DNA of 64,000 bases from Elusimicrobiales bacterium (GCA_028713125.1 JAQTOU010000002.1:1-64000); one strand, 5' to 3'; positions 1,131-17,456 are shown, numbered from the stretch's first letter. The notes: generated from the letters alone by a model not told the origin. Translations and numbers: made by a program.

Positions 1131-1218
1131 ATAGGGGACTCTGATGACTAAATGACTATTTATTAACAAGTCATTTAAAACCGCTGGAGAAGGCCCGGCG
1201 GTTTTGTTTTGGTAGAAT
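1131..1218 (+). repeat. Dispersed terminator-promoter module, copy 2 (full length)
   Basis: This is the most complete copy. It contains the ATAGGGGAC head, the AAATGACT/AGTCATTT inverted repeat (around 1150-1178), a degenerate terminator stem, the GGTTTTGTTTT tail and TAGAAT at 1213-1218. The hexamer ends 6 bases before the ATG at 1225, so it could both end the four-helix gene and start a leaderless mRNA for the next gene. Confidence 0.88.
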
Positions 1219-1224
1219 TGGGGG

Positions 1225-1740
1225 ATGGGCGAACTGGAATACAGTAATAGGGCGGTAATGATCGGCGGGAGGAGCAAGGCGGAGCTGCGGGAGCAGCTTG
1301 GACGGGCTTCTGTCGCGCTGAACAAGTATGCCGAGGAACTTTTTGCCAGCGAGTTGTTCTTTGTTTCGGAGGCGCGCTATTCTCTTGATATTGTGGAGAC
1401 TTCCGTAGAGAGGCTAGGGTTTCCCCGGGGGGCTACCATGGGCGAGCTGTTGGCCAGGGCCGGGAGCCTGAGCCTTGGCGTCTGCCCGCTTGAGCTTGGA
1501 CCCTGCCTGCGGCTGGAGTACCTTGACCAGCCGGAGGTGGATCCGGGGCAGACGGCCCGGTCCGCCCGGGCGCCCGCGGGGGCTATTACTGTTGTGTCCG
1601 CGCCGCTTTCAGCGGACGACGAGTTCCCTAAAGGCTTCTATTTGCGGCGTGCGGATGGCGTGCTGTGGCTGCGCGGCTACCGCTCTCCCCAGAACCACGT
1701 CTGGTCTCCGGACGACCGCCTTGTCTTTGCGCGGATCTGA
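1225..1740 (+). CDS. Conserved hypothetical protein, leaderless
   Basis: The 171-aa soluble protein has no signal peptide. I cannot assign a function. The middle and C-terminus (MGELLARAGSLSLGVCPLEL, GPCLRLEYLDQP, then a Trp-rich end with LWLRGY and HVWSPDDRLVFAR) resemble a small unnamed family I recall from uncultured candidate-phylum bacteria with the pattern LG..LCP.E.GP.LRL.Y.DQP; this is recollection, not a search. The N-terminus holds YSLDIVETSVERLGF. There is no Shine-Dalgarno: TAGAAT at 1213-1218 lies 6 bases before the ATG, which points to a leaderless transcript. It is transcribed alone, with a partial module head downstream at about 1748. Confidence 0.7.
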   Translation: MGELEYSNRAVMIGGRSKAELREQLGRASVALNKYAEELFASELFFVSEARYSLDIVETSVERLGFPRGATMGELLARAGSLSLGVCPLELGPCLRLEYLDQPEVDPGQTARSARAPAGAITVVSAPLSADDEFPKGFYLRRADGVLWLRGYRSPQNHVWSPDDRLVFARI

Positions 1741-1764
1741 CGAGGGATATAGGGGACGCCGCGT

Positions 1765-1793
1765 TTTACATTAAATCCGGAGTTAGATAAAAT
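1765..1793 (+). promoter_or_regulatory. Sigma-70-type promoter of the TetR gene, leaderless architecture
   Basis: TTTACA (1765-1770), a 17-base spacer and TAAAAT (1788-1793) are followed after only 6 bases by the ATG at 1800. The predicted transcription start falls on or next to the start codon. The promoter begins a few bases after a truncated module head (ATAGGGGACGC near 1748-1758). Confidence 0.75.
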
Positions 1794-1799
1794 TTGAAT

Positions 1800-2441
1800 A
1801 TGGCTAAAAAACACGGAACCGACAAGAACTGCTGCACCAGTGAAAAAGCCGCCGAAACCGCCATTAAATTAGTGGCCAAGCACGGCTTTGTCGAAACCAC
1901 TTTCAAGATGCTGGCCGGTGAACTTGGAATAAGCGAAGCGGAAGTCCTCCGCCTCTTTCCCAACAAGAACGCCTTGATGCAGGCGATGGTGCAGATCATC
2001 ATCCGGCACAACCACGCCGTAGTGGACGGGCTTGTCCGCAGCGGCGACGACGCCGGCTACCGCCTGCTTAGACACTGCGTGGGGAACGTCGCCTGGGCGG
2101 TGCGCAACCGGGGCGCTGAAACCCAGATACTGACGCTCCTCTATTACCTGGCCGGCCGCAGGAAGGAATTCGCCGACACTTTCGACCGGATGACGGCGGG
2201 CGGGCGGCAAAGGATCCTGAAGCACCTGCTGGCCGGCAAACGCGAGGGGATGTTCCATTTCACCAGCGATCCCGCGACCATCGCGGAACTCCTGCATCAC
2301 AGCCTGTTCGGCGCAATGCTTTACTCGGCTGCCGCCCCGAAAGGCAGCGTGAAGGAATCCGAGCTGGAAGCGTCGTGGATGAAGGTGATCATCGCGCTGA
2401 CGAATTACGACGGTCAGCCGACCCAGAACTTCGGGAGGTAA
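1800..2441 (+). CDS. TetR/AcrR-family transcriptional regulator
   Basis: The 213-aa protein has a TetR-type N-terminal helix-turn-helix at about residues 33-57 (TFKMLAGELGISEAEVLRLFPNK). It is preceded by the usual helix AAETAIKLVAKHGF, and the C-terminal part is all-helical and ligand-binding in this family. Such proteins are dimeric repressors that release DNA when they bind a small molecule. I chose the ATG at 1800 because the upstream in-frame TTG lies within the promoter-ATG gap. The N-terminal Cys-Cys pair (11-12) is unusual but not diagnostic. No transporter or enzyme gene is adjacent, so its target cannot be guessed beyond possible self-regulation. Confidence 0.88.
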   Translation: MAKKHGTDKNCCTSEKAAETAIKLVAKHGFVETTFKMLAGELGISEAEVLRLFPNKNALMQAMVQIIIRHNHAVVDGLVRSGDDAGYRLLRHCVGNVAWAVRNRGAETQILTLLYYLAGRRKEFADTFDRMTAGGRQRILKHLLAGKREGMFHFTSDPATIAELLHHSLFGAMLYSAAAPKGSVKESELEASWMKVIIALTNYDGQPTQNFGR

Positions 2442-2503
2442 AAGGGGGATAGGGGACGCTGCTTGAACCGATGGGGTGAGCGCCACCGGATAAGCCAGGT
2501 TAA

Positions 2504-3175
2504 ATGAAAATACTTATCTTGTTATCGCTGTGTTTGTCGCCGCTTTTCTGCCTTGGCGGGGACGTTGGTCTGCCGGCAGGGAGGGAGAGGATTAGGGTAA
2601 CCGCCCGTCAAATGTACCGGAGGGGGAAGGCCGATCTTGAAGCAAAGAGATATCCGGAAGCGATAAGTTCTTTTAAGGGATTGATAGACGGATTTCCCTC
2701 CGATCCCCTGGTTCCATCGGCCAGAAAATACCTGGCGATAGCCAAGGCGCGAAAAAAAGCGGCGGAGGCTGCCTCCGCCCGAGAGACTGCGCAGGGCGCC
2801 GAACAGCCGAAATTGATGCTGAAGCCTGTTTATCCGGAGCGAAAACCGGAGGAGGAGGAGGCCGTCCCTGTAAAAGGGAATCCGGCCAACTGCAAGCCCC
2901 ATCGCGCTAGCGACAGGCTTCGCGTCTGCAATTGGTATGACGCAATGGCATACTGCGAAGGGAGGCTCCCCACCGTGATCCAGCTGCAGGAACTGGACTT
3001 GGCCGAATGCTCGGGCGGGAATCAGCACGGCATATGCGGATGCAGGATCTGGTCCTCCCAAGGGGACGGCGCCAACGCCAAGACAGTTATCACCCACCTC
3101 GGCGGCGAAATTCAGACCGATAGGAAATCGCAATCTAATATATTCGTCCTGTGCGATAAACCAGCCGGCAACTGA
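2504..3175 (+). CDS. Secreted protein with TPR-like repeat and Cys-rich Lcl/DUF1566-like domain
   Basis: The 223-aa product has an N-terminal signal peptide (about residues 1-18). A TPR-like helical pair follows (MYRRGKADLEAKRYPEAISSF, VPSARKYLAIAKARKKAAE), then a Pro/Glu-rich linker. The C-terminal ~85-residue domain has six or more Cys and the pattern CNWYDAMAYCEG-RLPT, like the Lcl/DUF1566 or formylglycine-enzyme-like fold in which a protein is built around an AxxYC..RLPT motif. The same domain occurs twice in the gene at 39954, so the two are paralogues. The function is unknown; a cell-surface role is inferred. A partial module head (2449-2460) precedes it. Confidence 0.7.
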   Translation: MKILILLSLCLSPLFCLGGDVGLPAGRERIRVTARQMYRRGKADLEAKRYPEAISSFKGLIDGFPSDPLVPSARKYLAIAKARKKAAEAASARETAQGAEQPKLMLKPVYPERKPEEEEAVPVKGNPANCKPHRASDRLRVCNWYDAMAYCEGRLPTVIQLQELDLAECSGGNQHGICGCRIWSSQGDGANAKTVITHLGGEIQTDRKSQSNIFVLCDKPAGN

Positions 3176-3197
3176 CCGATCCCGGTATTAACGCGGG

Positions 3198-3280
3198 ATA
3201 GGGGACGTTAATGACTAAACGACTAATTGTCAGCGGCTTATTTAAAACCGCCGGGGAAATTTCCGGCGGTTTTCTTTTAG
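3198..3280 (+). repeat. Dispersed module, copy between convergent genes (no promoter hexamer)
   Basis: The head ATAGGGGACGTTAATGACT and a terminator stem CCGCCGGGGAAATTTCCGGCGG with TTTTCTTTTAG are present. It lies between a + gene and a - gene. The tail ends TTAGGGG, so the TAGAAT seen in codirectional copies is missing. Confidence 0.85.
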
Positions 3281-3297
3281 GGGAAGGCGGGGGAAGT

Positions 3298-3843
3298 TTA
3301 CTTCGGAAGCATGGCGGCCATGACGCGCTCGTATTCCGCCCGGGGGATCTCTTTTAATTCGTCGGTTATCAGCACGGTTTTGGTCCCGGCGAATACTTTT
3401 TTCGTGATCAGGGCCCCCTGGTTTATCGCGCCGGTTCCGGTAATAGCGCCCCCGGCCGCCAGTTTTATGTCGTAGGTCCAGGAGCTCAGGCCGGCGTCGG
3501 AATACGTAAGCGTCCCGGTGAAGGTCTTTTCGGCGTCCTGGGTGTCGTATACGAGCGAGGCGCCGCGCCTTTTCATGGTGGTTAGATAAGTGGTCGGCGG
3601 CACGGCAGGGCTTCCGCCGGGCTGGGTAAGGGTTTCGGTAATAAGCGAGCCGTCGGCGGAAACCTCCCTCTTCGCGGCCGAGGTCGTTCCGCCGTACGGG
3701 ACTTTCCCGTCCGCCGAGGAAAAGCGCGAGGGGCCGAAATAGAAGGCTGTCTTTGCCGGGCCTTCCGCGGCCGGGCCTTTTGAGCAGGCCAGGAAAAGAA
3801 AAGGGATAAGCATTGCCGCGTTCTTCAATGTGTTTGTTTTCAT
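3298..3843 (-). CDS. Predicted lipoprotein of unknown function
   Basis: The 181-aa product starts with a lipoprotein signal: positive N-terminus, hydrophobic core and lipobox LFLAC with Cys at residue 20. It is expected to be lipid-anchored. The mature part is Gly/Thr-rich and probably beta-structured (FTGTLTYSDAGLSSWTYDIKLAAGG). It ends with a short helical tail ERVMAAMLPK. No known domain is recognised. The gene is convergent with the gene before it, the intergenic module serving as terminator. There is no clear Shine-Dalgarno before the ATG at 3843. Confidence 0.75.
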   Translation of the reverse strand: MKTNTLKNAAMLIPFLFLACSKGPAAEGPAKTAFYFGPSRFSSADGKVPYGGTTSAAKREVSADGSLITETLTQPGGSPAVPPTTYLTTMKRRGASLVYDTQDAEKTFTGTLTYSDAGLSSWTYDIKLAAGGAITGTGAINQGALITKKVFAGTKTVLITDELKEIPRAEYERVMAAMLPK

Positions 3844-3886
3844 ATGTTTTAGAGGGTCTCTTCAGGGATATGTTACAACATCCTCC

Positions 3887-3924
3887 GACCGCCGGGGAAG
3901 CCGGCGGTTTTGTTTTTGTAGAAT
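3887..3924 (+). repeat. Dispersed terminator-promoter module, short copy
   Basis: The short form has a terminator stem CCGCCGGGG/CCGGCGG, a TTTTGTTTTTG tail and TAGAAT at 3919-3924. It lies between divergent genes, so termination is not needed here, yet the hexamer is retained 37 bases before the ATG at 3962. Confidence 0.8.
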
Positions 3925-3961
3925 ATTAGCTGAAGTCTTTTATAGCGGAGCGAGAGGGGAT

Positions 3962-4438
3962 ATGAAGGAATTGAAGGCCGAAGACCTTATTCGGATATAT
4001 TCGCTGAAGCCGCATCCTGAGGGCGGGTTTTACCGCGAGACTTACAAGTCCGCGGCGAGGGACAAGAGCGGCAGGCATTTTTGCACCGGGATCTATTTCC
4101 TGCTGCCGAGAAAGGCCACGTCCAGGATGCACCGCCTGAAGTCGGACGAGATGTGGCATCACTACGGCGGCGGCGCTCTGACCGTGGGGATGATCTTTCC
4201 CGACGGCAGGGAGGAGCGGGTGGCGGTCGGGCCCGACGCCGGGGCGGGGGAGGTGCAGCAGTTCGTGGTCCCCGCCGGAACTTGGTTCGGGGCCTGGCCG
4301 AAGCCGGGCGCCGCTTTCGCTTTCGTCGGCTGCACGGTGTCGCCCGGGTTCGAGTTCTCCGATTTTGAGTTCGGGGAGCGGGCTTTCCTGCTGAAAGAAT
4401 TCCCTTCTTCCGGGAAACTGATCAGGCTCCTGACCTGA
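3962..4438 (+). CDS. Cupin-fold protein, DUF985 (cupin_5) family
   Basis: The 158-aa cytosolic protein carries the DUF985 hallmarks: HPEGGFYRETY near residue 18, SRMHRLKSDEMWHHYGGGAL in the middle and the later VPAGTWFGAWP. The conserved His and Glu residues line a cupin pocket that may bind metal. DUF985 proteins are small single-domain cupins without a settled reaction, possibly sugar-related. The ATG at 3962 is chosen because the family begins with the helix LIRIYSLKPHPEGG just after it; the frame remains open for 44 further codons upstream through the intergenic module. Confidence 0.88.
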   Translation: MKELKAEDLIRIYSLKPHPEGGFYRETYKSAARDKSGRHFCTGIYFLLPRKATSRMHRLKSDEMWHHYGGGALTVGMIFPDGREERVAVGPDAGAGEVQQFVVPAGTWFGAWPKPGAAFAFVGCTVSPGFEFSDFEFGERAFLLKEFPSSGKLIRLLT

Positions 4439-4523
4439 ACGAGGGAAAAAGGCTTGCCGTAGGGGTTAAAACTTTAAATAATGGTATATAGCGCCCCGGA
4501 AGGGGCTTTGGACCAGGAGAGAA

Positions 4524-5021
4524 ATGACGACTAAAATTAATCTTGGACTTTCACTTACGCTGAACGTGATGCTTGGCTTTGTGATATTGCAAAACAACAA
4601 AAAGCCGGTGGCCCTTTCTGATTTCAGGGACGCCGTAGCGGATATCCGCGTTCCCGCCGAGGTTCTGCCTACTCCCGCGCCCGAGACCGTTTTTGTGGAG
4701 GCCGCCCCGGCTGCGGCTGCCGTTGCAGAGCAGGCCCCGGCTCCTGCCCCCGCCCGGGCCCAGGCGATCATAGTCGCGAATGACCTGGCCGCTTATAAGC
4801 AGGAGATGGCTGAAGACAGGGATGTGGTGGTAAGCAATCTCTTCCGCTCGGAAAAGAACTGCGACAGGGCCATGCACGCCGCTGTGCGCAGGCTGCAGGT
4901 CGCAGGGAAAGAAGTTCTCTTCTCCTGCCTTATGCCGGCCACCGGCGGCGGAACTTTCTACCTGATCCGCCTGGTCTCGGTCGCCCCGGAGATACCGATG
5001 ATGGTGTCCAGTGGCAGGTAG
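4524..5021 (+). CDS. Membrane-anchored protein with Ala/Pro-rich linker, unknown
   Basis: The 165-aa protein has one N-terminal membrane segment (INLGLSLTLNVMLGFVIL, residues 5-22), an Ala/Pro-rich linker (about 45-85) and a helical C-terminal domain with two Cys (CDRAMHAAVRRL and FSCLMPATGG). It is probably tethered to the inner membrane with the domain outside the cytoplasm. I recognise no family. A compact hairpin GCCCC-GGAA-GGGGC lies at about 4493-4506 between a TATATA box and the Shine-Dalgarno (GGAGAG), so it would be near the 5' end of the mRNA. A full dispersed module follows. Confidence 0.65.
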   Translation: MTTKINLGLSLTLNVMLGFVILQNNKKPVALSDFRDAVADIRVPAEVLPTPAPETVFVEAAPAAAAVAEQAPAPAPARAQAIIVANDLAAYKQEMAEDRDVVVSNLFRSEKNCDRAMHAAVRRLQVAGKEVLFSCLMPATGGGTFYLIRLVSVAPEIPMMVSSGR

Positions 5022-5102
5022 GGACGCACATGACTTTATGACTTTTTATTAACAAGTTATTCGAGACCGCCGGGGAAGCCCGGCGGTTTTGTTTTGTAGA
5101 AT
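5019..5102 (+). repeat. Dispersed terminator-promoter module, full-length copy
   Basis: The copy runs from TAGGGACGC, where TAG is also the stop codon of the upstream gene, through a degenerate AT-rich inverted repeat. It continues into the perfect terminator stem CCGCCGGG-GAAG-CCCGGCGG, TTTTGTTTTG and TAGAAT at 5097-5102. The hexamer ends 6 bases before the ATG at 5109. Confidence 0.9.
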
Positions 5103-5108
5103 CTTGGT

Positions 5109-5414
5109 ATGCAGCCTGATTATCCGCTTTATGAGGAGTTGGTGCGCCGGGGATCGCGCGGGCGCTGGTTCTGGCTCGCCGGCGTCTGGCTTTATTCGGC
5201 CGGGGTGATCGGGCTCAGCCTTGTCCTTGTCGTGCTGCCGGTGGCGATCTTCTTCAAGTTCGGGAAGATGAGCATATACTACGCGGCGGCTGCCCTGGCT
5301 ATGGCCGGGCTGGCGATGGCAGGCAGCCTGCTGAAAAGGGCCTCCTACAAGATAGCCCTGGGCGAGGGGATAGATATCACCAAATATTTCGAGAAGCCAG
5401 CGGGGCGGGTGTGA
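5109..5414 (+). CDS. Small membrane protein with two TM segments, leaderless
   Basis: The 101-aa product has two strong membrane helices (about residues 22-45 and 57-75) linked by a short basic loop with KFGKMS. A soluble C-terminal tail ends TKYFEKPAGRV. No domain is recognised. No Shine-Dalgarno is present; TAGAAT lies 6 bases before the ATG. It is followed after 40 bases by a CvpA-like gene on the same strand, and the two may form a unit. Confidence 0.65.
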   Translation: MQPDYPLYEELVRRGSRGRWFWLAGVWLYSAGVIGLSLVLVVLPVAIFFKFGKMSIYYAAAALAMAGLAMAGSLLKRASYKIALGEGIDITKYFEKPAGRV

Positions 5415-5454
5415 AGATCATGAAAATAATAAGATGGGGGACGCACAGAGCAAT

Positions 5455-6159
5455 ATGAACCTGGACCTCTGGATCCTTGCGGCGCTTGGCTTATTCGCTT
5501 TGATCGGTTTCTATACTGGCGCTATCCAGCAAGTTTCCCACTGGATAGGGATCATCGCCGCTTATTTCTTCGCCAAGCCCCTCGCCGCGCTGCTCGCTCC
5601 GGCTATTTCCGGGCGCATGGGCTGGCCGCCGGCGCTGGTAACCGTCGGTTTAAGCGCGCTTTCCATGCCCGTTATCCTGATCGTAGTGACTCTGATCGCG
5701 CGCGGGATAATCAACGCTATCATCCCGGGCAAGCAGCGCAATCTGCCCGACCGGGTCGCCGGGATCTTCCTGGGCGCGGGCAAGATCGGAGTGATCGCCT
5801 GGCTCGCGCTTGCCGCCGTCCTCGCTTTCGAGGGGCCGCTGGCCAAGCATCTTCCCCGCGCCGAAGCCGCCCTGAACGCTTCCTCGGCCGCGGCCTTCAC
5901 GCGCAAGCACAGCCCTTTTGATACGGCTTCGCTAGCGGCGCTGGATAAGTTCCGCGCTGTGGCCGCGATGCGCGACGACCCAAAAATATCGAAGGCCCTG
6001 CTCAACGATCCGGCCCTGAAAGCCCTCCTCAACGATCCCGCTTTGAAGCGGGCCCTGGAAAAAGGCGACGCCTCGGCCCTGCTCGAGAACCCGCAGGTAA
6101 AGAAGCTGCTCGCGGACCCGGAGCTGGTTAAAAAAATGGATTCGCTGGCGGACCATTGA
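5455..6159 (+). CDS. CvpA-family-like membrane protein
   Basis: The protein has four hydrophobic helices in the first ~135 residues (NLDLWILAALGLFALIGFYTGAIQQVSHWIGIIAAYFFAKPLA and following), in the arrangement of the CvpA/colicin V production family. A soluble tail then carries a short repeat (NDPALKALLNDPALKRALEKGD..LLENPQVKKLLADPEL). That tail is a ~9-residue repeat around DP or NP, reminiscent of the heptad-like tails of some CvpA-like and STI1-type proteins. CvpA proteins are inner-membrane proteins of unsettled function. The start at 5455 gives the usual CvpA N-terminus; an in-frame ATG at 5434 adds seven residues. Confidence 0.7.
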   Translation: MNLDLWILAALGLFALIGFYTGAIQQVSHWIGIIAAYFFAKPLAALLAPAISGRMGWPPALVTVGLSALSMPVILIVVTLIARGIINAIIPGKQRNLPDRVAGIFLGAGKIGVIAWLALAAVLAFEGPLAKHLPRAEAALNASSAAAFTRKHSPFDTASLAALDKFRAVAAMRDDPKISKALLNDPALKALLNDPALKRALEKGDASALLENPQVKKLLADPELVKKMDSLADH

Positions 6160-6246
6160 GGCAACTTCAAGATGCGACAGTGAACGCTGGTTATTAAAAG
6201 CTATTCGAGACGTCTGGAAGTATTGTGTTTTTTGTTTTAGCGGGTT

Positions 6247-6289
6247 AAAAAAGGAAGGGGACGCTGAATATGTCAGCGTCCCCTTCCTT
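6247..6289 (-). terminator. REP-like perfect palindrome acting as terminator of the minus-strand gene
   Basis: A 17-bp perfect stem (6251-6267 with 6273-6289) encloses a 5-base loop. Its arms contain GGGGACGCTGA and the complement TCAGCGTCCCC, the same core as the module head. Read on the minus strand it is followed by TTTTTTAA, so it can terminate the gene ending at 6303. A degraded module copy lies just upstream (6181-6240). Confidence 0.85.
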
Positions 6290-6302
6290 ATATGTGCGGC
6301 GG

Positions 6303-6677
6303 TTACTTCTTTGCGGCGGCGGGGGCGGCCTTAACTTCCGCGAAGGAGGCGACCTTCAGCGCGGCCAGCGGGTATTTGGGCGGGTTCGGGGGAAGGTACT
6401 CGCCCTTCACGGTGACGGTCTTGCCGGCCAGTTTTTCGAGGGGCTTGAAAACCTTCTTGTCGGCGCCGGGGAGCAGTTTTATGCTTTCCTCGCCGGCCTT
6501 GAGAAGGATAGTGTCGTACTTCTCGTTCTTCTTCGGGTCGGCCTTCTGGACTGAGATGACGCCGGTCTTCTCCGTCAGCTCGGTCTTCTTCTCCTGCTTC
6601 TGGGCCTGGGCCCAGGCGCCGGCAGTGCCGGCAAGCAGGGTGAGAGCGATAAAACCGCCAAGTATCCTGTTCTTCAT
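6303..6677 (-). CDS. Small secreted protein, unknown
   Basis: The 124-aa product has an N-terminal signal peptide ending near AWAQA (about residue 25). The mature domain of ~85 residues is Lys-rich and probably a beta-barrel (TGVISVQK, ILLKAGEESIKLLPG, KLAGKTVTVKGEYL). This pattern, KLAGKxVxVxGxx, recalls small OB-like bacterial domains. The start at 6677 is supported by AGGAGA seven bases upstream on the minus strand; a longer upstream extension has no signal. The REP-like palindrome is its terminator. Confidence 0.75.
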   Translation of the reverse strand: MKNRILGGFIALTLLAGTAGAWAQAQKQEKKTELTEKTGVISVQKADPKKNEKYDTILLKAGEESIKLLPGADKKVFKPLEKLAGKTVTVKGEYLPPNPPKYPLAALKVASFAEVKAAPAAAKK

Positions 6678-6780
6678 ATTTAAATCTCCTTTAATACGCG
6701 CTGGACTATATTCGAATGGTACATTTTTCAAGAAGCCTGGAAAAGGGGGGATTTTTTCACCTTGGAAAAGGGGCGGGGTT

Positions 6781-6810
6781 TTGCATTTGACGCTGGAAAA
6801 CATCTATTCT
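6781..6810 (+). promoter_or_regulatory. Probable leaderless promoter of the DUF2007 gene
   Basis: TTGCAT (6781-6786), an 18-base spacer and TATTCT (6805-6810) are followed after 7 bases by ATG at 6818. TATTCT also precedes the gene at 12942 at the same distance. Confidence 0.55.
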
Positions 6811-6817
6811 TATGGGC

Positions 6818-7048
6818 ATGGAAGACAAACCTTTAGAGACAATTTATGAGGCGCAGAATTCGGCGGAGGCGGAGATGCTCTGCGGGGTTCTTAAGTCCAA
6901 TGGGATCAAATGCGTTCTGCTGGACAGGAACGCGAGCGCTATGGTGGCCGGTTTCGGCCCGGCTATTCCAGTGAGACTGGCGGTCATAGCCGAAGACCGG
7001 GAAAAAGCTATAGAGCTGTTAAGATCATTCAAGTATAACGAAGAGTAG
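6818..7048 (+). CDS. DUF2007-family putative signal-transducing protein
   Basis: The 76-aa protein matches the small DUF2007 fold (ferredoxin-like beta-alpha-beta): ETIYEAQNSAEAEMLCGVLKSNGI near the N-terminus, a variable loop, and VRLAVIAEDREKAIELLRSF at the end. These proteins are proposed to be small regulatory or adaptor domains, with no proven ligand. I chose the ATG at 6818 since it lies 7 bases after TATTCT; an in-frame ATG at 6812 adds two residues. It precedes the Sel1 gene by 29 bases in the same direction. Confidence 0.8.
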   Translation: MEDKPLETIYEAQNSAEAEMLCGVLKSNGIKCVLLDRNASAMVAGFGPAIPVRLAVIAEDREKAIELLRSFKYNEE

Positions 7049-7077
7049 CGGAAAAGGCCCGGGGAAACTTTTTATAT

Positions 7078-8217: not shown

Positions 8218-8238
8218 CAACTGCTTTACCGCGGGGCC

Positions 8239-8322
8239 AGGGGACGCTGAGCACTAATGACCATTCATTAACAAGCCATTCGAGACCGCCGGGGGAACCC
8301 GGCGGTTTGGTTTTGGTAGAAT
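8239..8322 (+). repeat. Dispersed terminator-promoter module feeding a short upstream ORF
   Basis: The copy has the AGGGGACGCTGA head, an AT-rich inverted-repeat zone, CCGCCGGGGGAACCCGGCGG as terminator, GGTTTTGG and TAGAAT at 8317-8322. Seven bases later an ATG opens a 24-codon ORF (8330-8404), not the main gene. Confidence 0.87.
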
Positions 8323-8329
8323 AGAAAAC

Positions 8330-9347: not shown

Positions 9348-9379
9348 GGAAAGGGCGGGGGCCCTTAGGGGTTTCCGGA

Positions 9380-9940: not shown

Positions 9941-10001
9941 GGATCGGGGACGCTGAAGAGCGAGACCGCCGGGGAAGCCCGGCGGTTTTGTTTTGTAGAA
10001 T
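9941..10001 (+). repeat. Dispersed terminator-promoter module, internally deleted copy
   Basis: The head (GGATCGGGGACGCTGA) is joined directly to the terminator stem CCGCCGGG-GAAG-CCCGGCGG, TTTTGTTTTG and TAGAAT (9996-10001); the AT-rich hairpin is missing. The hexamer ends 10 bases before ATG 10012. Confidence 0.87.
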
Positions 10002-10011
10002 AGTTGTAAAT

Positions 10012-10638: not shown

Positions 10639-10712
10639 TAGGGGAGAGGCGGCACGAAGAGCGTCTAAAGTCATTTAAAACCGCCGGGGAAGCCCGGCGG
10701 TTTCTTTTTATC
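10638..10712 (+). repeat. Dispersed module without promoter hexamer
   Basis: The head is ATAGGGGAGAGGC, then AGTCATTTAAAA and the terminator stem CCGCCGGG-GAAG-CCCGGCGG with TTTCTTTTTA. No TAGAAT follows, and the next gene starts 167 bases later from its own region. Confidence 0.84.
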
Positions 10713-10878
10713 CCTGGGCTAGGTGGATCCTGAAGCGCAGGGGGCCAAAGGGCCCAGGTCCGGGGCGCCATTTTTCCCTGTACCACTGGGCCTTTCTGCT
10801 CTATATGTCTGTGGAGAGTTCGGATACAATATCTTATAGATTCGATTCTCCGGGAAGCCGGAAACTAGGGGTGCATTA

Positions 10879-12861
10879 ATGAAAAAAATATTCTGCGCGG
10901 CGTCGGTGTTTCCCTCTCTTTTGATAGCCTCGGGCGTGATCTTCGCCTCAAGCGACGGGGTTATGCAGCTGTCGGATGTTAACGACAGTCTTAAACAAAT
11001 CCTCCAGGAACAGAAAGATTCTCAAGGTAAGCCGCTGCCCAATGGTTGGCAGCCCGGTCAGCCCGGGCAGCAGCCTCATCCCGGTTGGCAGCCTGGCCAG
11101 CCCGGCGGTAACCACGGCGGTCAGCCCGGCGGCGACAATAACGGCCCTGGCAATCACGGCGGCAACAATGGCGGCCAGCCCGGTCACCCCGGCCAGCCCG
11201 GCCACCCCGGTCAGCCTGGGCAGCCCGGTCAGCCTGGCCAACCCGGCCAGCCGCCCCAGCCTCCCCAACCTCCCCAACCCCCTCAGCCGCCCGCGCCGGT
11301 AGATACCACCCAGGCGCGGAACGCCGGTATACGGGACGGTTCCGAAGTAGGCGGCAGGGAAGGCCGGCAGAGAGGCTATGCTGACGGCGTCGATTCCGGT
11401 GAAAGGGAAGGGCGCAGAAAAGGCACCGATGAAGGCGATTATGCGGGCCGTCAATCCGGCTACAGGGACGGCTATAATGTCGACCAGTCCATGGGGACGC
11501 AGAGAGGGAACGCGGACGGCCAGAACGTCGGGACCAATAATGGTACCGAGGCCGGCAAGAAGCGCTGCTATGACGAGGGCTATACCGGCGGCTACAATAC
11601 CGCCTATGCCGCCGCGAACCAGGCAGGGCTGCAGGATGCGGCTTCCTACAGCACAGGCTTCGCTAAGGGGCAGGCCGACGCGGCTGTTATAGAGGCCGCG
11701 AACGGCCAGAAAGCCGGCTACCAGGCCGGATTCAGCCAGCGTGAAGCCGAGCTCCAGAGCTCTTCCCTCGACACTAAATCAATGAGGGGCGCCTTCGCGA
11801 AGGGCGCGACCACCGGCCTTCCTATAGCGCTGGCCCGCAACGGTTATAACACCCCTGAAGAGCAGCGCGCCTATAAAGAAGGTTACCAGGAAGGCTACCG
11901 CAACAGCTACAACCGGGCTTATGAGTTCGCCAAGCGCGAAGGCTATAATGAAAGATACAGCATGGCGTACAGGCGCGCCTACGACGCCCAGTTCTCGGTC
12001 AGCTACAGGACCGGCTTCGCCCAGGGAAAAGAGAAGGGCTACCAGGACGCTTATAATGCGGCGTATAACTCCGCTTATTCCAGTTATTACAATGAATACA
12101 GCAGGAGGGAATACTCAGAGCAGCGCGCCCAGGGCCTGACCAATGGCCAGACCGTCGGCCAGAAGGAAGGCTTCGCCGCCGGCTCCGCCGAGCAGACGAA
12201 GGTCGGCTACAAGGCCGGCTATGAGAAGACTGCGGCCGAGGTGTACCCCGGCGCCTTCGAAGCCGGCAAACAGTCCGGCATCGCGGCTGCCGACAAGTAT
12301 TACAGCGAGAATGCTGTCCTCAAGGTCGTCGGCGTCACGTTCTACGACGAGAACGGCAATGGCCAGTTCGAAGCTAACGAGAATATCATGATGAAGGCCG
12401 AAGTCAGGAACTTCGGTTTCCAGAAGTCGGATACCGTAGCCATAGTGGTCAAGAGCGAGCGCGGGGAGATAACCCTGACGGCCGACCTGAAGGCCGAAGG
12501 CGTGGGCGGCCGGGCGAAAACCATGGTGACACTTAATATCGGCAAGCTCTACGATGTCGTCGCGCCGGACGCGGACGCCCTTGTCGCGACGTTCTCGGAA
12601 AAGGGCGCGCTTGTCGGCGATGCCCGCCAGATGTACACGAGGACGAACCCCAACAGGGTCGGCGTCGTGTCGAAGAACGGAACCGATGTAAGGAAAGGTA
12701 CCCATGGTATCTTCTCCAGCTCTATCGCCAAGCTCGACCGCGGAGCGAAAGTCATAATAACCGGCGACAAGAACGGTTATTGGAGCGTCCGCAAGTCCGC
12801 GGTAATGGCCGGGGACTGGACCGAGGGCTATATCAATCAGGATAAGATAAACCTTCAGTAA
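10879..12861 (+). CDS. Secreted GX3-repeat protein with collagen-like/Pro-Gln linker and SH3-like end
   Basis: The 660-aa product starts with a signal peptide (about 1-24). A Gly-Gln-Pro-rich low-complexity stretch (50-147) follows, with PGQPGQPG and PPQPPQ blocks. Next is a long region (about 148-480) dominated by small residues every fourth position: GxxxGxxxG, such as GYADGVDSGEREGRRKGTDEG, and later YxxGY/YxxAY such as YKEGYQEGYRNSYNRAYEFA. This resembles the GX3 arrays of Yae1/Lto1-type proteins and predicts a helical rod or packed helices. Residues about 485-565 form a CARDB-like beta-domain with DENGNGQFEANENI, a calcium-loop-like DxNGNGxF. The last ~75 residues look SH3-like and end GYINQDKINL. 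It is probably a surface or periplasmic structural protein. Shine-Dalgarno AGGGGTG precedes the start. Confidence 0.75.
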   Translation: MKKIFCAASVFPSLLIASGVIFASSDGVMQLSDVNDSLKQILQEQKDSQGKPLPNGWQPGQPGQQPHPGWQPGQPGGNHGGQPGGDNNGPGNHGGNNGGQPGHPGQPGHPGQPGQPGQPGQPGQPPQPPQPPQPPQPPAPVDTTQARNAGIRDGSEVGGREGRQRGYADGVDSGEREGRRKGTDEGDYAGRQSGYRDGYNVDQSMGTQRGNADGQNVGTNNGTEAGKKRCYDEGYTGGYNTAYAAANQAGLQDAASYSTGFAKGQADAAVIEAANGQKAGYQAGFSQREAELQSSSLDTKSMRGAFAKGATTGLPIALARNGYNTPEEQRAYKEGYQEGYRNSYNRAYEFAKREGYNERYSMAYRRAYDAQFSVSYRTGFAQGKEKGYQDAYNAAYNSAYSSYYNEYSRREYSEQRAQGLTNGQTVGQKEGFAAGSAEQTKVGYKAGYEKTAAEVYPGAFEAGKQSGIAAADKYYSENAVLKVVGVTFYDENGNGQFEANENIMMKAEVRNFGFQKSDTVAIVVKSERGEITLTADLKAEGVGGRAKTMVTLNIGKLYDVVAPDADALVATFSEKGALVGDARQMYTRTNPNRVGVVSKNGTDVRKGTHGIFSSSIAKLDRGAKVIITGDKNGYWSVRKSAVMAGDWTEGYINQDKINLQ

Positions 12862-12867
12862 AGCAGC

Positions 12868-12916
12868 CTTAACAAGCAAACCGAAACCGCCGGGGCAGCC
12901 CGGCGGTTTTGTTTTA
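12868..12916 (+). repeat. Dispersed module, terminator part
   Basis: TAACAAG and a terminator stem CCGCCGGG-GCAG-CCCGGCGG with TTTTGTTTTA follow the GX3-repeat gene. A different hexamer, TATTCT at 12930-12935, follows and lies 6 bases before ATG 12942. Confidence 0.85.
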
Positions 12917-12941
12917 TATGGAAATATAGTATTCTGCACTT

Positions 12942-13457
12942 ATGGGGAAAGACCAAATATTTATCTGGGTTGCCGTATGCTTTGCAGCGGCGCTTTTGCT
13001 CGTGCTGCTCAAGTTCCTGCGGGCCCGGGGCAAGGCGGCGCCCGTGGATGACGGGGAAAGCCCGCCCGCGCTGATAGAAGGCACGGCGGTTTTTACCGGC
13101 AGGCATAAGGGCGTGAAATACTGGCTGTATTACGATAATGAACGGGCGCGGCTGGAAATAGAGATGGGCGAGGGGGTGGCGTCGCCATTCATTTACGACC
13201 GCAAGGCGGATAAGCCTGAATTGCCCGGGGATGCCAGGGACCTGGAAGTCAAGGAGCTGCTTGAACTCCGGGCCGTTTACGTGGAGGCCGCGGCCACCGG
13301 CGCCCTGGTCGCGGCCCTGTTCCCGGAAAGGGTCTTGAATGGAAATGCGGGCCGCCCCGGCGGCCCCAGCCCGGAAGAGGCGGTCGCGAACAAGGTCGTG
13401 GAACTCCTCTCGGCTATCCGCGATAAAAGCCGGAAACGGCCGGATAAACCGGGATAA
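12942..13457 (+). CDS. Membrane-anchored protein, unknown, leaderless
   Basis: The 171-aa product has one N-terminal membrane helix (IFIWVAVCFAAALLLVLLKFL, residues 6-26) followed by a soluble domain with IEGTAVFTGRHKGVKYWLYYDNERARLEIEMGEG in the first half and a Pro/Lys-rich tail. The domain is expected to be cytoplasmic or periplasmic depending on topology: few positive residues precede the helix and many follow it, so the C-terminus is probably cytoplasmic. No family is recognised. TATTCT ends 6 bases before the ATG and there is no Shine-Dalgarno. Confidence 0.65.
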   Translation: MGKDQIFIWVAVCFAAALLLVLLKFLRARGKAAPVDDGESPPALIEGTAVFTGRHKGVKYWLYYDNERARLEIEMGEGVASPFIYDRKADKPELPGDARDLEVKELLELRAVYVEAAATGALVAALFPERVLNGNAGRPGGPSPEEAVANKVVELLSAIRDKSRKRPDKPG

Positions 13458-13518
13458 AGCGAAGCGCTGCTAAATTGCTTCCAGGGAATTAAGTTGCGTG
13501 CCGCCTGTTCACCGTGAC

Positions 13519-13686
13519 ATGAAAACAGATAACCCGCGTAAAAAGCTCCGGTCCGATCTATTCATGGCGCTGTTTTTGCTGGCGCTCCTGGCTTTTATGG
13601 CTTATCAGGCCAGGAACTACGCCAACTGGGCGCAAGAGAAAAAAGCTGAAAGACTAGCCTCCGAATCCCCGCCCGCCGGCAAGTAA
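13519..13686 (+). CDS. Small single-span membrane protein
   Basis: This 55-aa product consists of a basic N-terminus (MKTDNPRKKLRSDL), one membrane helix (FMALFLLALLAFMAYQA) and a short charged tail. An in-frame GTG at 13498 would add seven residues. It follows the membrane-anchored gene by 61 bases in the same direction and may share its transcript. No function can be assigned from sequence. Confidence 0.55.
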   Translation: MKTDNPRKKLRSDLFMALFLLALLAFMAYQARNYANWAQEKKAERLASESPPAGK

Positions 13687-13724
13687 TGCGCGCCTATAGC
13701 TGAAAAGGCCGCTTAAGCCTTTAG

Positions 13725-13778
13725 AACCGCCGGCTGCCGGGCGGTTTTGTTTTGCGGGAGGCGGGGGTTTGGTAGAAT
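13725..13778 (+). repeat. Terminator-promoter module, divergent short copy
   Basis: A terminator stem AACCGCC-GGCTGCC-GGGCGGTT (13725-13746) with TTTGTTTTG is followed by a G-rich 20-base insert and then TAGAAT at 13773-13778. The hexamer ends 7 bases before ATG 13786. Confidence 0.8.
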
Positions 13779-13785
13779 ATCGATT

Positions 13786-14550
13786 ATGAAAAATATAAAG
13801 GCAGCCGGCGGGCTGGGGGTGGACAGGCTGGTATACGACGCGGATATTTATGACGCGATGAACACTTTCACGCACGATATCCCGTTCTACCTGGAAGAAT
13901 GCCGCCGCGCCAAAGGGGCGGTGCTCGAGCTCTGCTGCGGAAGCGGCCGGCTTACGCTGCCGCTTCTAAGGGCGGGGATAGATATCACGGGGGTGGACTT
14001 TACCCCGCCGATGCTCGCCGCGGCCAGGAAGAAAGCGTCAGCGCAGGGCCTGCCGGACGTTTTCCTGCGGGGGGATATGCTCAAGATCCGGCTCAAGAAA
14101 AAATTCAAGCTTGTCTTCATCCCTTTCAACTCCATCCAGAACACCTATACGCTGGAGGACGTGGAAAAAGTATTCAGAACGGCGCGCGCGCATATGGCGC
14201 CGGGCGCGCGTTTCGTGTTCGACATTTTCAACCCGAGCATAGAATACATGGTCAAGCTGGTGAATCTGCATAAGGGGATAGCCAAATTCCGTACGGCCCT
14301 GGGGCGCAGGGTGGTGGTGGACGAGATCTGCCGTTACGACTCCGCCGCGCAGGTCAACCGGACGACCTGGATCCACCGTATAGACGGCGGCCGGCCGCTG
14401 CCGCAAAAGCTGGATATGCGCTGCTTCTACCCGCTGGAAATGGACGCGCTGCTTAAATACAACGGGTTCAAGGTCCTGGCTAAATTCGGGACCTATGACA
14501 GGAAGCCGTTCACTTCGGCGTCGATGAAGCAGATCTACGTGTGTAAATAA
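13786..14550 (+). CDS. Class I SAM-dependent methyltransferase
   Basis: The 254-aa protein has the Rossmann-fold SAM-binding motif I VLELCCGSGRLTLPLL (around residues 44-59), motif II GVDFTPPMLAAAR and the later FIPFNSIQNTYTLEDV and GARFVFDIFNPS. This order places it among class I methyltransferases near the Methyltransf_25/UbiE-like group. The N-terminal segment with YDADIYDAMNTFTHDIPFYLEE is typical of the small-molecule methylating branch. The substrate cannot be told. The start at ATG 13786 lies 7 bases from TAGAAT without a Shine-Dalgarno, so it is probably leaderless. Confidence 0.88.
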   Translation: MKNIKAAGGLGVDRLVYDADIYDAMNTFTHDIPFYLEECRRAKGAVLELCCGSGRLTLPLLRAGIDITGVDFTPPMLAAARKKASAQGLPDVFLRGDMLKIRLKKKFKLVFIPFNSIQNTYTLEDVEKVFRTARAHMAPGARFVFDIFNPSIEYMVKLVNLHKGIAKFRTALGRRVVVDEICRYDSAAQVNRTTWIHRIDGGRPLPQKLDMRCFYPLEMDALLKYNGFKVLAKFGTYDRKPFTSASMKQIYVCK

Positions 14551-14608
14551 AAAGACCGGATCAGCGCGGCAGGATATGGGTTTAAAAGGCGCGGCTACGG
14601 AGGTTTAA

Positions 14609-15082
14609 ATGAAATTTGCCCTGGGGTTCTTTTTTCTGGCTTTCCAGTTCCTTGACCAAACGGCTTTCTGCGCCGGGCACGCCTTTGTGAAACAAAGCGA
14701 ACCTTCCAAAAAACCGGAAGCGGCGGGCAGGCTTCCCCGCCCGGGTTATAGAAGCATGGGCCTTGAATTCGATAATGACCGGATATCATATATCTCGCCT
14801 GAAGACAGGGTCGACGTGATAGCGGTCATAAAGGAGCTCCAGTTCGCGGAAAAAGCGGGAGCGTCCGCGGCGACTTTGCTTAAGATGGTGCGCGTTCTCG
14901 CCGTGGAGGCTTCAGCCTTATATCCGTGGCAAAGCGTCTTGCTTCTCGAGATGAATTTCAACGAAGCCCAGTTCGCCGCGCTGGCCTGGGAGAGCGCGGA
15001 CGTCCAGGTCCTGCTGCGCGATCCGAAGGATGAGGAAGTGCATCCCATGGAACAGGCTTCTTTAAACTTTTTGTCCCGCTAG
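14609..15082 (+). CDS. Secreted RcpC/CpaB C-terminal-like domain protein
   Basis: The 157-aa product has a signal peptide (about 1-22). Its mature part resembles the RcpC half of CpaB, the Flp pilus assembly protein: ISYISPEDRVDVIAV, LLKMVRVLAVEA and VLLLEMNFNEAQFAALAWES followed by VQVLLRDPKDEE. These match the family's GxIxPGDRVDVL, the LLQNVxVLAV strand and the VTPEQAxxLALAxxxGxLxLxLRNPxD pattern. The SAF domain that normally precedes RcpC in CpaB is absent here; a SAF protein lies at 18605. A role in pilus or envelope assembly is inferred. Shine-Dalgarno GGAGG precedes the ATG. Its 3' end overlaps the convergent rhodanese gene by four bases. Confidence 0.6.
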   Translation: MKFALGFFFLAFQFLDQTAFCAGHAFVKQSEPSKKPEAAGRLPRPGYRSMGLEFDNDRISYISPEDRVDVIAVIKELQFAEKAGASAATLLKMVRVLAVEASALYPWQSVLLLEMNFNEAQFAALAWESADVQVLLRDPKDEEVHPMEQASLNFLSR

Positions 15083-15429
15083 AGGGTATTCTGCCAGGGG
15101 CCCGCATTGGTGACGTTCCGGAAGCCGAGGCCTTTCAAGATGCCGACAGCTATGCCGCTGCGCGCCCCGGAGGCGCAGCAGAGGACCACCGGCTTGGTTT
15201 TGTCCAGTTTCGCCGCCCCTTTTGCCAGCATATCCAGCGGTATGTTGATGCTGCCCGGCCGGCTGCCGGCGGCGAACTCGGCCGGCGAGCGCACGTCCAC
15301 TATCACCGCGCCCTCCGCGGCCAGCCCGGGCAGCTTCCCCCGCACGGCCTTGAATCTGAAATAACGGAATACCAGGAAGGCGACGGCGCCCGCCGGGAGG
15401 ATATACGGCTGCATGGTTTCCAGGGTCAT
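15079..15429 (-). CDS. Membrane-anchored rhodanese-like sulfurtransferase
   Basis: The 116-aa product has an N-terminal membrane segment (residues 8-22) and a rhodanese domain. The domain shows VIVDVRSPAEFAAGSRPGSINIP and the active-site loop CCASGARS, with the catalytic Cys in the CxxGxR context, then GFRNVTNAGPWQNTL. Rhodaneses carry sulfur on a persulfide Cys. The positively charged side (RYFRFKAVRG) follows the helix, so the domain is cytoplasmic. It is convergent with the gene at 14609 and shares four bases with it. Confidence 0.88.
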   Translation of the reverse strand: MTLETMQPYILPAGAVAFLVFRYFRFKAVRGKLPGLAAEGAVIVDVRSPAEFAAGSRPGSINIPLDMLAKGAAKLDKTKPVVLCCASGARSGIAVGILKGLGFRNVTNAGPWQNTL

Positions 15430-15481
15430 GTTATGCGTCCTTGCTCCGGTCTGATTTAACTTTCATTATTTAGATGCAATA

Positions 15482-15525
15482 AGCCGCCAAAAGTTTCAGC
15501 TCCAGGCGGTTTTGTTTTGTAGAAT
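15482..15525 (+). repeat. Terminator-promoter module, short divergent copy
   Basis: The stem AGCCGCC/GGCGGTT is interrupted by a 16-base loop and followed by TTTGTTTTG and TAGAAT (15520-15525). It lies between divergent genes, with a GTG start 6 bases after the hexamer. Confidence 0.75.
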
Positions 15526-15531
15526 TTGGGG

Positions 15532-15927
15532 GTGCGGTATTGGCTGGAAGCGGGGAGAGAGCGGCTTATAAGCGTCCGGGAGATGAAAATGAAAATATCA
15601 TACGAGGAAAACTACCGGCTGCTCGAGCAAGTCGCGGACCTGGTGGCCGGGACCATGACGATAGTGAAAAAAGAATTCGAGCAGGACGACGAGATCTTCA
15701 AGAAAGAGGTCAGCGAGTATATCGACCGCCTCGGCGAAGTGGCGGCTGTGTTCGAGAACGAGCCGGCCAATTCGAACATCCTGCGGGCCCGCTTCCCCGG
15801 CGCCGCTTCCTTCTTCGTGGAGACGCAGCACCGGCCCGGCGCCCCGCGTCTCGCGCCCGGCATAATCCGCATACAGGATTTCCGGAAAAAGGGCGGGGAC
15901 CGGAAGCCGGGGCGTAATCGTCCCTAA
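15532..15927 (+). CDS. Small soluble helical protein, unknown
   Basis: The 131-aa product is mostly helical in its first 90 residues with a heptad-like distribution (YRLLEQVADLVAGTMTIVKKEFEQDDEIFKKEVSEYIDRLGEVAAVF). A basic, Pro/Gly-rich tail follows. I recognise no family. The start is uncertain: GTG at 15532 lies 6 bases after TAGAAT as in other leaderless genes, while ATG codons at 15583 and 15589 follow a GGGAG. It precedes the kinase gene by 28 bases and may share its transcript. Confidence 0.55.
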   Translation: MRYWLEAGRERLISVREMKMKISYEENYRLLEQVADLVAGTMTIVKKEFEQDDEIFKKEVSEYIDRLGEVAAVFENEPANSNILRARFPGAASFFVETQHRPGAPRLAPGIIRIQDFRKKGGDRKPGRNRP

Positions 15928-15955
15928 CTTGCCTCCTCCCGGATCTTAACCAGCT

Positions 15956-17368
15956 ATGCTGCCTAAAGAGATAGAATCCGTAGTCTATATATTGCTGATG
16001 ACGCTCATCGCTACCCTGGCGATATTCATATACTTCCTCAAGAACTCGGTAAACAATAAAAAAAGAAACCGGCCCGGCCCGCCGCCGGCCTCCGTTCCGG
16101 AACAGGCCCCCGCCGTCGAAGCCGCGCAGCCAGCCGATGTCCTTGCCCGGGCAAAGACGCTGTTCTCCGACGGCTCGTTCGGCGAAGTTCCGGAGGAGCT
16201 GAAGAAAATACCGAGGGCCCGGTGGAGCGAGGCGGAGTGTTCCCTGGCGCTAAGGGCAAGCCTGCGCCGGCGCGACTTCCCGTACGCCAGGGAGCTGTTC
16301 GAATGGGCCGAGAGCCGGGCTTGGCTTCGCGATTCGGCGCTTCTGCAGTATCTTTTCGCCATTACCTGCGAGCGGGCCGGCAATGCAAAACGCGCGGCCG
16401 CCCTGTATGACAAACTGCTCCGGATAAACGGCAGCTACCAGGATTGCGAGGCGCGCCTGCGCAGCCTGCGGCGCCTGCCCGCCGAGGACGCGCGCACCAT
16501 GTCCGCCTATTTTAAGACCACCGGCAGGGGCCGGCCGGAGGAAGGCCCGGACCGCCAGCCGCGCAAGGCCGCCCCGGTACTGAAGGAGGTGGCGGGGCGG
16601 TTCACTATCCTCGGCCTTTTGGGCGTCGGCGGCAGCGGCGTGGTTTTCCTGGCGAAGGACAAGTCGCGGGGCCGCCTGGTGGCGCTGAAACGGATGAGCC
16701 AGGAGATAGCCCGTGACCCGGAGGACAGGGCCCTCTTCCTTGCGGAGGCAAAAACTCTTTCGGAGCTCCGGCATCCGCGCATCGTGGAATTTTACGAGGC
16801 CGTAGAGTCCGGGGAGGACGTTTACCTGGTGCTCGAGTATATCGATTGGGAAACCCTCCAGACCGTATTGGCGCTCAGGGGCCGGCTTACGCCCGGAGAA
16901 GTTGTCCCCATCCTGAAGGCGGTTGCCGAGGCGCTGGCCTTCGCGCATGAAAAAAAGGTCATACACCGCGATCTCAAGCCCGGGAATATAGTTTCGGGGC
17001 CGAAGAATTTCGTCAAGGTGATGGATTTCGGTATAGCCCGCCATTTCGACCAGGACGCCGCGGCTATCCAGGAAGTGGACGTTGTCGGAACCCCCGCCTA
17101 CATGGCGCCGGAACAGCATGCCGGAGTGACCACCCCGCTTTCCGATATTTATTCCTTCGGGGTGACGGCCTATACCCTCGTTACGGGCCGGCTGCCTTTC
17201 GCCGGGCCTTCCTCGCTCTATTACAGCCAGAAAATGGAGCGCGATTACCCGAAGCTGCCGGACGAACTGCCCGCCGGCCTGCGCGAGCTCATCGACCGCT
17301 GCCTGATGTTCGATCCCGGCAAGCGTCCCGCCGGCGCCGCCGCCCTGCTGCGGATGCTGTCGCAGTAA
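15956..17368 (+). CDS. Membrane-anchored Hanks-type Ser/Thr protein kinase
   Basis: The 470-aa protein has a membrane helix at residues 9-28, a Pro-rich linker, a helical TPR-like region (about 60-175) and a C-terminal kinase domain (about 214-468). Every key residue is present: G-loop GVGGSG (223-228), Lys245 in VALKRM, Glu264, the HRD loop HRDLKPGN (337-344), DFG (357-359) and APE (384-386). It should be an active eukaryote-like kinase that phosphorylates Ser/Thr. The reversed order, with the membrane helix before the kinase, differs from PknB-type proteins whose kinase is N-terminal. Its sensor would then be the helical region. No phosphatase is adjacent. Confidence 0.92.
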   Translation: MLPKEIESVVYILLMTLIATLAIFIYFLKNSVNNKKRNRPGPPPASVPEQAPAVEAAQPADVLARAKTLFSDGSFGEVPEELKKIPRARWSEAECSLALRASLRRRDFPYARELFEWAESRAWLRDSALLQYLFAITCERAGNAKRAAALYDKLLRINGSYQDCEARLRSLRRLPAEDARTMSAYFKTTGRGRPEEGPDRQPRKAAPVLKEVAGRFTILGLLGVGGSGVVFLAKDKSRGRLVALKRMSQEIARDPEDRALFLAEAKTLSELRHPRIVEFYEAVESGEDVYLVLEYIDWETLQTVLALRGRLTPGEVVPILKAVAEALAFAHEKKVIHRDLKPGNIVSGPKNFVKVMDFGIARHFDQDAAAIQEVDVVGTPAYMAPEQHAGVTTPLSDIYSFGVTAYTLVTGRLPFAGPSSLYYSQKMERDYPKLPDELPAGLRELIDRCLMFDPGKRPAGAAALLRMLSQ

Positions 17369-17456
17369 GGGGAATAATTACGCTGAAGACGAAACAACTA
17401 TTTATTGAAGTCAAGCGGAACCTCCGGGGAAGCCCGGCGGTTTTGTTTTGTAGAAT
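17369..17456 (+). repeat. Dispersed terminator-promoter module, full-length copy
   Basis: It runs from the kinase stop codon through ACGCTGAAGACGAAACAACTATTTATT (degenerate head and AT-rich part). The terminator stem CCTCCGGG-GAAG-CCCGGCGG, TTTTGTTTTG and TAGAAT (17451-17456) follow. The next ATG is 7 bases further on. Confidence 0.88.

Follow-up and report, generated by a model that had tools for sequence, protein, structure and literature searches.

Leaderless 'TA-led' genes have been described in which a -10 box of the type TANNNT lies about 12 bp upstream of the start codon (Zheng 2011, PMC3160421; for Deinococcus-Thermus, PMC12340547); term searches of these two articles returned neither Elusimicrobiota nor terminators. 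Other described systems close to the locus reported here are Rho-independent (intrinsic) terminators, sedentary chromosomal integron arrays, and repetitive extragenic palindromic (REP) elements, which can be paired in inverted orientation (REPINs) and are mobilized by RAYT transposases. In this study, we analyzed a DNA stretch of 64,000 nucleotides from an Elusimicrobiales bacterium (GCA_028713125.1, JAQTOU010000002.1:1-64000; the whole stretch is called the window), in which a repeat composed of a GC-rich stem, a T-rich tail and often the hexamer TAGAAT separates many genes. The window opens contig C15 (729,573 bases) in a 3.48-Mb Elusimicrobiota genome, and the repeats lie in an accessory-gene array between the ribosomal protein genes rpsJ and rplC. 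Judged from the sequence, the repeat is probably an intrinsic terminator of the upstream gene abutting a -35-less promoter of the next gene, inside an array that splits the S10 operon.

The stem, CCGCCGGG-N4-CCCGGCGG, was found 22 times in the window at up to three mismatches, compared to a mean of 3.6 and a maximum of 9 in shuffled sequences, bearing out the at least 20 intergenic copies reported in an earlier note on this DNA. In 25 array segments of same-genus genomes, 265 copies were located on the rpsJ-to-rplC strand (forward) and 9 on the opposite strand. Among the 220 forward copies with both neighboring genes within 300 nt, 205 lie after a forward gene; the neighboring genes are codirectional for 151, convergent for 54, divergent for 14, and reverse for 1. 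Of the intergenic gaps measuring 40 bp or more, 425 are codirectional, 106 convergent, 130 divergent, and 30 reverse, and copies are much rarer per divergent gap (14/130) than per codirectional gap (151/425; p = 1.3e-8). The median distance from stop codon to stem is 28 nt. Because of these orientation counts and this distance, the element tracks the 3′ ends of forward genes, as a terminator should. Four representative copies fold as strong RNA hairpins followed by a T-run (z -3.4 to -7.0), and a stable GC-rich hairpin with T-run lies just past a stop codon on the same strand.

For the promoter half, a -10-like hexamer (TAGAAT or a close variant) was searched for after the tail. It is present in 85 of the 151 codirectional and 7 of the 14 divergent copies, but in only 2 of 54 convergent copies and not in the single reverse one; thereby, 92 of 165 copies facing a gene start carry it versus 2 of 55 facing a gene end (Fisher p = 2.3e-13). 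The hexamer variants were picked after viewing the window, and the identical set was used for every orientation. The earlier note had read the repeat as a fused terminator and promoter, a reading that equal hexamer frequencies at convergent and codirectional copies would have contradicted, and that is now supported by the orientation split as well as by two spacings. The hexamer begins 10 or 11 nt past the stem in 89 of 95 cases, and the first ATG follows exactly 6 nt after the hexamer in 43 of 95 and 6-8 nt after it in 54 of 95, with 5.8 expected from shuffled sequences. At one of the two convergent copies with a hexamer (G044, 19,337), a second element lies 86 nt further on, as if a gene had been lost there.

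At sigma-70 promoters, the transcript starts about 7 nt past the -10 box. Therefore, an ATG 6-8 nt after the box predicts a leaderless mRNA. In the 43 units with a called start farther away, the leader contains a Shine-Dalgarno (SD)-like motif in 25. Genes were called with a home-made caller that rewards TAGAAT, TAAAAT or TATAAT close to a start, and gene-start coordinates depend on it; the ATG offsets and the whole-genome pattern counts are independent of it. Counts for the whole genome come from pattern searches together with a 400-kb sample of control sequence. The pattern TTTGNTAGAATN6ATG occurs 24 times in the genome at up to one mismatch and its reversed control not at all. By this count and by the ATG offsets, a TANNNT-type hexamer precedes the start codon by about 12 bp, as in TA-led genes. 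TA-type hexamers peak 6-7 nt ahead of called start codons also in the control sequence, a peak partly aided by the start bonus of the caller. A -35 box was not detected above shuffled sequence in array or non-array promoters, and in the array promoters the terminator stem occupies the -35 position. TTG(N) lies upstream in 7 of 33 leaderless promoters, so the T-run is not a general feature of these.

The copies are confined to one place. In this genome, nearly all of them fall in one 56-kb stretch, stem plus T-tail being almost restricted to C15:5-56 kb. Of the 8 occurrences of the exact string GGCGGTTTTGTTTTG in the genome, 7 are within the first 17.5 kb of C15 and hence in the window. The cassette had been called dispersed, which does not hold; a genome-wide repeat is rejected, since nearly all copies lie in a single locus. 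The stem was found in all 24 same-genus genomes searched and was absent from all 16 sister-family genomes searched, and the records carrying the exact string CCCGGCGGTTTTGTTTTGTAGAAT are nearly all metagenome-assembled genomes (MAGs) of Elusimicrobiota. In G013, G014 and G015, for which copy places were listed, a single contig carries most of the copies, predominantly on one strand. A 14-kb contig binned as HGW-Actinobacteria-6 (L099, PHEU01000043.1) carries 11 stem matches, mostly on one strand, with no matches on the other contigs of that genome; it is probably a fragment of such an array that was assigned to the wrong bin. As a known RNA family the element was rejected, as the window and three relative loci gave no Rfam match at the gathering threshold.

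An ordinary terminator and an ordinary leaderless promoter could also be adjacent only through short intergenic gaps, with no coupling and no special array. Both signals do occur separately in the genome, yet neither the narrow spacing of stem and hexamer nor one stem sequence that nearly all copies share and that is hardly found outside one locus fits this idea. Furthermore, fused units make up 20 of 44 codirectional terminators in three arrays versus 0 of 14 in a systematic scan of the 400 kb outside. We therefore consider simple adjacency possible but rather doubtful. Several observations count against a fused terminator-promoter in a growing array. The hexamer is found in only 56% of the codirectional copies, the 44% without it being as simple adjacency would have it. 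Also in favor of adjacency, clear fusions were seen by eye at two non-array promoters (L134 and L147), whose terminators have unrelated stems. Hence, the fused architecture is not exclusive to the array, and these cases support the T-run followed by a -10 box as a workable design in this genome. The stem sequence is more conserved than termination alone needs, and conservation through compensatory change was weakly supported (10 changes versus 4.9 expected, shuffle maximum 12) and was not adopted. Finally, the gradients of gene sharing and GC content given below are not significant in G000 (the genome of the window), G003, G010 and G023.

On C15, the end of tuf is followed by rpsJ, the accessory-gene array and, at 66,335, rplC (L3). 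The ten species with both genes on one contig have an rpsJ-rplC distance of 16-93 kb: 15.9 kb in G023, 18.2 in G003, 30.4 in G010, 46.3 in G009, 47 in G012, 49.9 in G007, 60.1 in G014, 65.8 in G000, 79.2 in G044, and about 93 in G024. In the sister family, the two genes are only about 0.03-0.3 kb apart, i.e. the operon start is intact. In other genera of the same family they are on separate contigs, and the stretches read of two of these (G050 and G052) contained no stem array. The array is genus-specific, and it splits the S10 operon by separating rpsJ from rplC. All genomes are metagenome assemblies, and several arrays break off at contig ends near tuf. The lineage bearing the array is a groundwater bacterial lineage; searches of the Elusimicrobia literature on leaderless genes, integrons and ribosomal operons brought up titles and passages in which the locus was not described.

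In the ten complete arrays, the fraction of genes that have orthologs in other arrays is 0.18 at less than 3 kb from rpsJ and increases to 0.74 at more than 45 kb; the GC content of the genes increases likewise, from 0.52 near rpsJ to 0.64 far from it (within-genome permutation p <= 0.001 each). The gradients are driven mainly by G009, G044, G007 and G024, and for GC also by G014 and G012. The GAAG loop and the full tail become less frequent along the array, from about half of the copies (0.50) close to rpsJ down to 11% at a distance, with the stem remaining conserved. Shared genes keep their order in many pairs and their strand in nearly all. Since the genes near rpsJ are low in GC and rarely shared and the distal ones are shared in several species, growth of the array appears to proceed from its rpsJ end. 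The pair G010 and G007 has 30 perfectly colinear genes, with 13 more in G007 at the rpsJ end, and homology stops just after the rpsJ terminator, at its T-run. Interior gains or losses also occur: G009 (34,454-35,594) and G014 (36,470-38,424) have two genes between two elements where their relatives G044 and G000 have one element. It thus seems that genes are added mostly beside rpsJ and that units are exchanged from repeat to repeat, with loss in the other species as a possible alternative. That array genes were in general transferred recently from species to species was not supported, because shared genes out of order are no more alike than syntenic ones; one exception is G009_005/G024_020/G044_007 (96% identical versus 89-90% for rplC).

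Such polar gain could come about by homologous recombination of incoming DNA, with tuf-rpsJ as a long anchor and the array repeat as second crossover, and would then need no dedicated enzyme. The strong conservation of tuf-rpsJ beside a variable end, the homology break between G007 and G010 at the T-run and the gain or loss of units between direct repeats speak for this route, as does the finding that interspecies array genes are on the whole no more alike than rplC predicts. On the other hand, repeats of 20-45 bp are short for efficient homologous recombination, the low-GC genes near rpsJ suggest donors outside the genus, and no donor was identified. We regard this route as quite possible, though short of probable.

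Alternatively, the element could be the recombination site of an integron-like cassette system, in which single genes enter by rpsJ with one copy each and terminator or promoter activity is secondary. The single orientation of the copies, the polar gradient in several species, the 13 extra genes of G007 beside 30 colinear ones and the extra genes between two copies where a relative has one all agree with this. However, no match to the integron integrase (TIGR02249) exceeded the cut-off in any of 32 genomes, most sub-cut-off matches being frames of XerC/XerD size, and the attC core GTTRRRY is depleted around the elements (3/302 versus 25.6 in shuffled sequence), with the RYYYAAC core not enriched (15 versus 15.3). 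Moreover, the copies follow the 3′ ends of forward genes and avoid divergent gaps, and the cassettes carry their own promoters. An integron-like site is thus unlikely, and membership of the integrons proper was rejected, as no integrase above the cut-off and no attC cores were found.

Many copies had been described as sharing the head GGGGACGCTG. It is present in a part of them, but belongs to a separate repeat: GGGGACG(C/T)T is REP-like, and full inverted, REPIN-like palindromes of it occur in the arrays. Y1-transposase-like (RAYT-like) genes were found in 27 of 32 genomes, and 4 of 6 fetched loci are flanked by related but different repeats, GGGGACAGG or GGGGACAGA. Paired inverted REPs together with a Y1 transposase are found for the head repeat family in some arrays, but not for stem, tail and hexamer. 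That the whole cassette is a REP/REPIN element spread by RAYT transposases is highly improbable and was rejected as the origin of stem, tail and hexamer: the head accompanies only 43 intergenic stem copies, the other parts have no counterpart in REPINs, and strict one-strand orientation at a single locus is unlike scattered REPs. Two further palindromes were observed. A perfect inverted repeat, AAGGAAGGGGACGCTGA...TCAGCGTCCCCTTCCTT, forms a short REPIN-like hairpin between convergent genes at 6245-6290 of the window. A GC-rich palindrome of about 140 nt, GTGTGGGCCCG...GGCCACACCGTGGCC...GCTTACGCAAGC...CGAACCCACACCCC, is repeated in the genome (G000, C15 about 249-367 kb, L112-L118) and often lies directly downstream of the rpsJ terminator in G003, G014, G009, G046 and G043; as a special rpsJ-adjacent site it was rejected, as it is also scattered in the control sequence.

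The features of the window are listed in Table 1. By reading every intergenic region, the TAGAAT, TAAAAT and TAGGAT hexamers pointed out before and the lack of a hexamer at the four convergent copies were confirmed. The hexamer had been said to follow the tail at once; at 13773 it lies farther away. The codirectional copies said to lack it do lack it (10681, 35539 and 53377), but that list was incomplete, as those at 12887 and 26581 lack it as well. The ATG at 8330, 7 nt past the hexamer, starts a 24-codon ORF (open reading frame; 8330-8404) in a frame different from that of the gene at 8394, whose start it overlaps; it is a possible leaderless upstream ORF.

Table 1. Features of the window; positions are counted from its first base.
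Feature	Position	Strand	Remarks
tuf end	1..152		by sequence reading
rpsJ (ribosomal protein S10), left array border	154..498	+	protein 94% identical to G014 rpsJ; matches across genus
rpsJ terminator AACCCTGGCTGG...CCAGCCAGGGTT	529..562	+	kept across genus; G010 vs G007 homology ends at T-run
Accessory-gene array between rpsJ and rplC, window part	585..64000	.	runs on to 66,335 on C15
REP-like head, stem, tail, then TAGGTT in place of TAGAAT	592..671	+	
REP-like head, stem, tail, TAGAAT (1213), N6, ATG 1225	1131..1218	+	predicted leaderless gene; fold z -3.4
REP-like head, stem; convergent genes, no hexamer	3198..3280	+	
Stem, tail, TAGAAT (3919); divergent genes	3889..3924	+	SD-like leader ahead of ATG 3962
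REP-like head, stem, tail, TAGAAT (5097), N6, ATG 5109	5019..5102	+	predicted leaderless gene; fold z -5.9
REP-like head, stem, tail, TAGAAT (8317)	8239..8322	+	first ATG 8330 begins short ORF
Short head, stem, tail, TAGAAT (9996), ATG 10012	9946..10001	+	fold z -7.0
Codirectional stem and tail, no hexamer	10681..10707	+	
Codirectional stem and tail, no hexamer	12887..12914	+	
Stem, tail, TAGAAT (13773), ATG 13786	13727..13778	+	tail ends 13754; hexamer about 18 nt past tail
Degenerate stem, tail, TAGAAT (15520); divergent genes	15490..15525	+	
Stem, tail, TAGAAT (17451), ATG 17464	17421..17456	+	predicted leaderless gene; fold z -4.1
Convergent copy, no hexamer	20678..20704	+	
Stem, tail, TAGGAT (23624)	23594..23629	+	
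Codirectional copy, no hexamer	26581..26608	+	
Degenerate stem, tail, TAAAAT (30447)	30418..30452	+	
Convergent copy, no hexamer	31852..31878	+	
Convergent copy, no hexamer	33073..33100	+	corresponding G014 place: two extra genes between two copies
Codirectional copy, no hexamer	35539..35568	+	
Diverged codirectional copy	53377..53406	+	no hexamer adjoining tail
Stem, tail, TAAAAT (55905)	55874..55910	+	last hexamer-bearing copy seen in window

Pfam matches among the window proteins include TetR, cupin, CvpA, Sel1, methyltransferase, rhodanese, protein kinase, AlkZ-like, DTW, radical SAM and OPT transporter; no transposase or integrase was found among the window proteins scanned. In relatives, the rpsJ-proximal genes include those for RelA/SpoT-domain, caspase-domain and TPR-GreAB-PIN proteins, and many have no Pfam match. 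The first called gene after rpsJ in G007 (L043:9658-10308, minus strand) encodes a RelA/SpoT-domain protein, for which PADLOC gave a match to the defence candidate PDC-S33 (E 1.9e-76). Defence genes may collect in the rpsJ-proximal zone. A small gene at 43387-43725 of the window (minus strand) is found in the array of most species examined, with an interspecies identity above that of rplC in many pairs (e.g. 92% versus 81%), and is a conserved array resident.

In the terminator-promoter model that we favor, the element would terminate transcription of the forward gene upstream and share its T-run with the adjoining -35-less promoter TTTTGTTTTG[N]-TAGAAT of the next gene, so that stem, T-tail, -10 box and start codon would fit within about 45 nt. 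The next gene would often start 6-8 nt past the -10 box, giving a leaderless mRNA. The elements would mark gene boundaries, and with a stop and restart at each of them many array genes would be short transcription units; the addition or loss of a gene, mainly beside rpsJ for additions, would then affect neighbors little. Element anatomy, orientation dependence, spacings, array confinement, the split operon and the gradient in several species can be read in the DNA itself; from these we infer that the element really stops and starts transcription, that leaderless mRNAs are translated, and that polar gain proceeds through recombination in the repeats or close to them, all functional statements being drawn from sequence statistics. 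Only tentatively, we go further to an ordered gene-capture locus working without integron integrase, where foreign genes would enter by rpsJ, bounded by a fused terminator-promoter that doubles as exchange site, and the newcomer would be insulated and expressed at once as leaderless mRNA.

The arrangement suggests that a terminator could become a promoter with few changes (a T-run plus six bases), and it would extend -10-only leaderless expression to the Elusimicrobiota. It also places a large, ordered and variable accessory array, explained by no known recombination system, within an operon that is among the best conserved in bacteria. As the elements seem young near rpsJ and old near rplC, they offer a useful series for testing how a gene-capture locus grows.

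Compared to known systems, the array resembles sedentary chromosomal integron arrays in being a long, mostly one-orientation series of accessory genes with a repeated palindromic element between them and the newest genes at one end; in contrast, it has no integrase above the cut-off and no attC core motifs, its genes have their own promoters, its element would act as terminator and promoter, and its border is a ribosomal protein gene. With the REP/REPIN elements of RAYT transposases it shares the head and the full palindromes, whereas stem, tail and hexamer are not a REP. Like intrinsic terminators, the element is a GC-rich hairpin with a T-run soon after the stop codon, but one stem sequence is reused hundreds of times at one locus in one genus, and a -10 box follows at fixed distance. 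Finally, the downstream genes agree with TA-led genes in having a -10 box just before the start codon, no need for a -35 box and a predicted leaderless mRNA, and differ from them in the fusion of this box with an intrinsic terminator, at its T-run.

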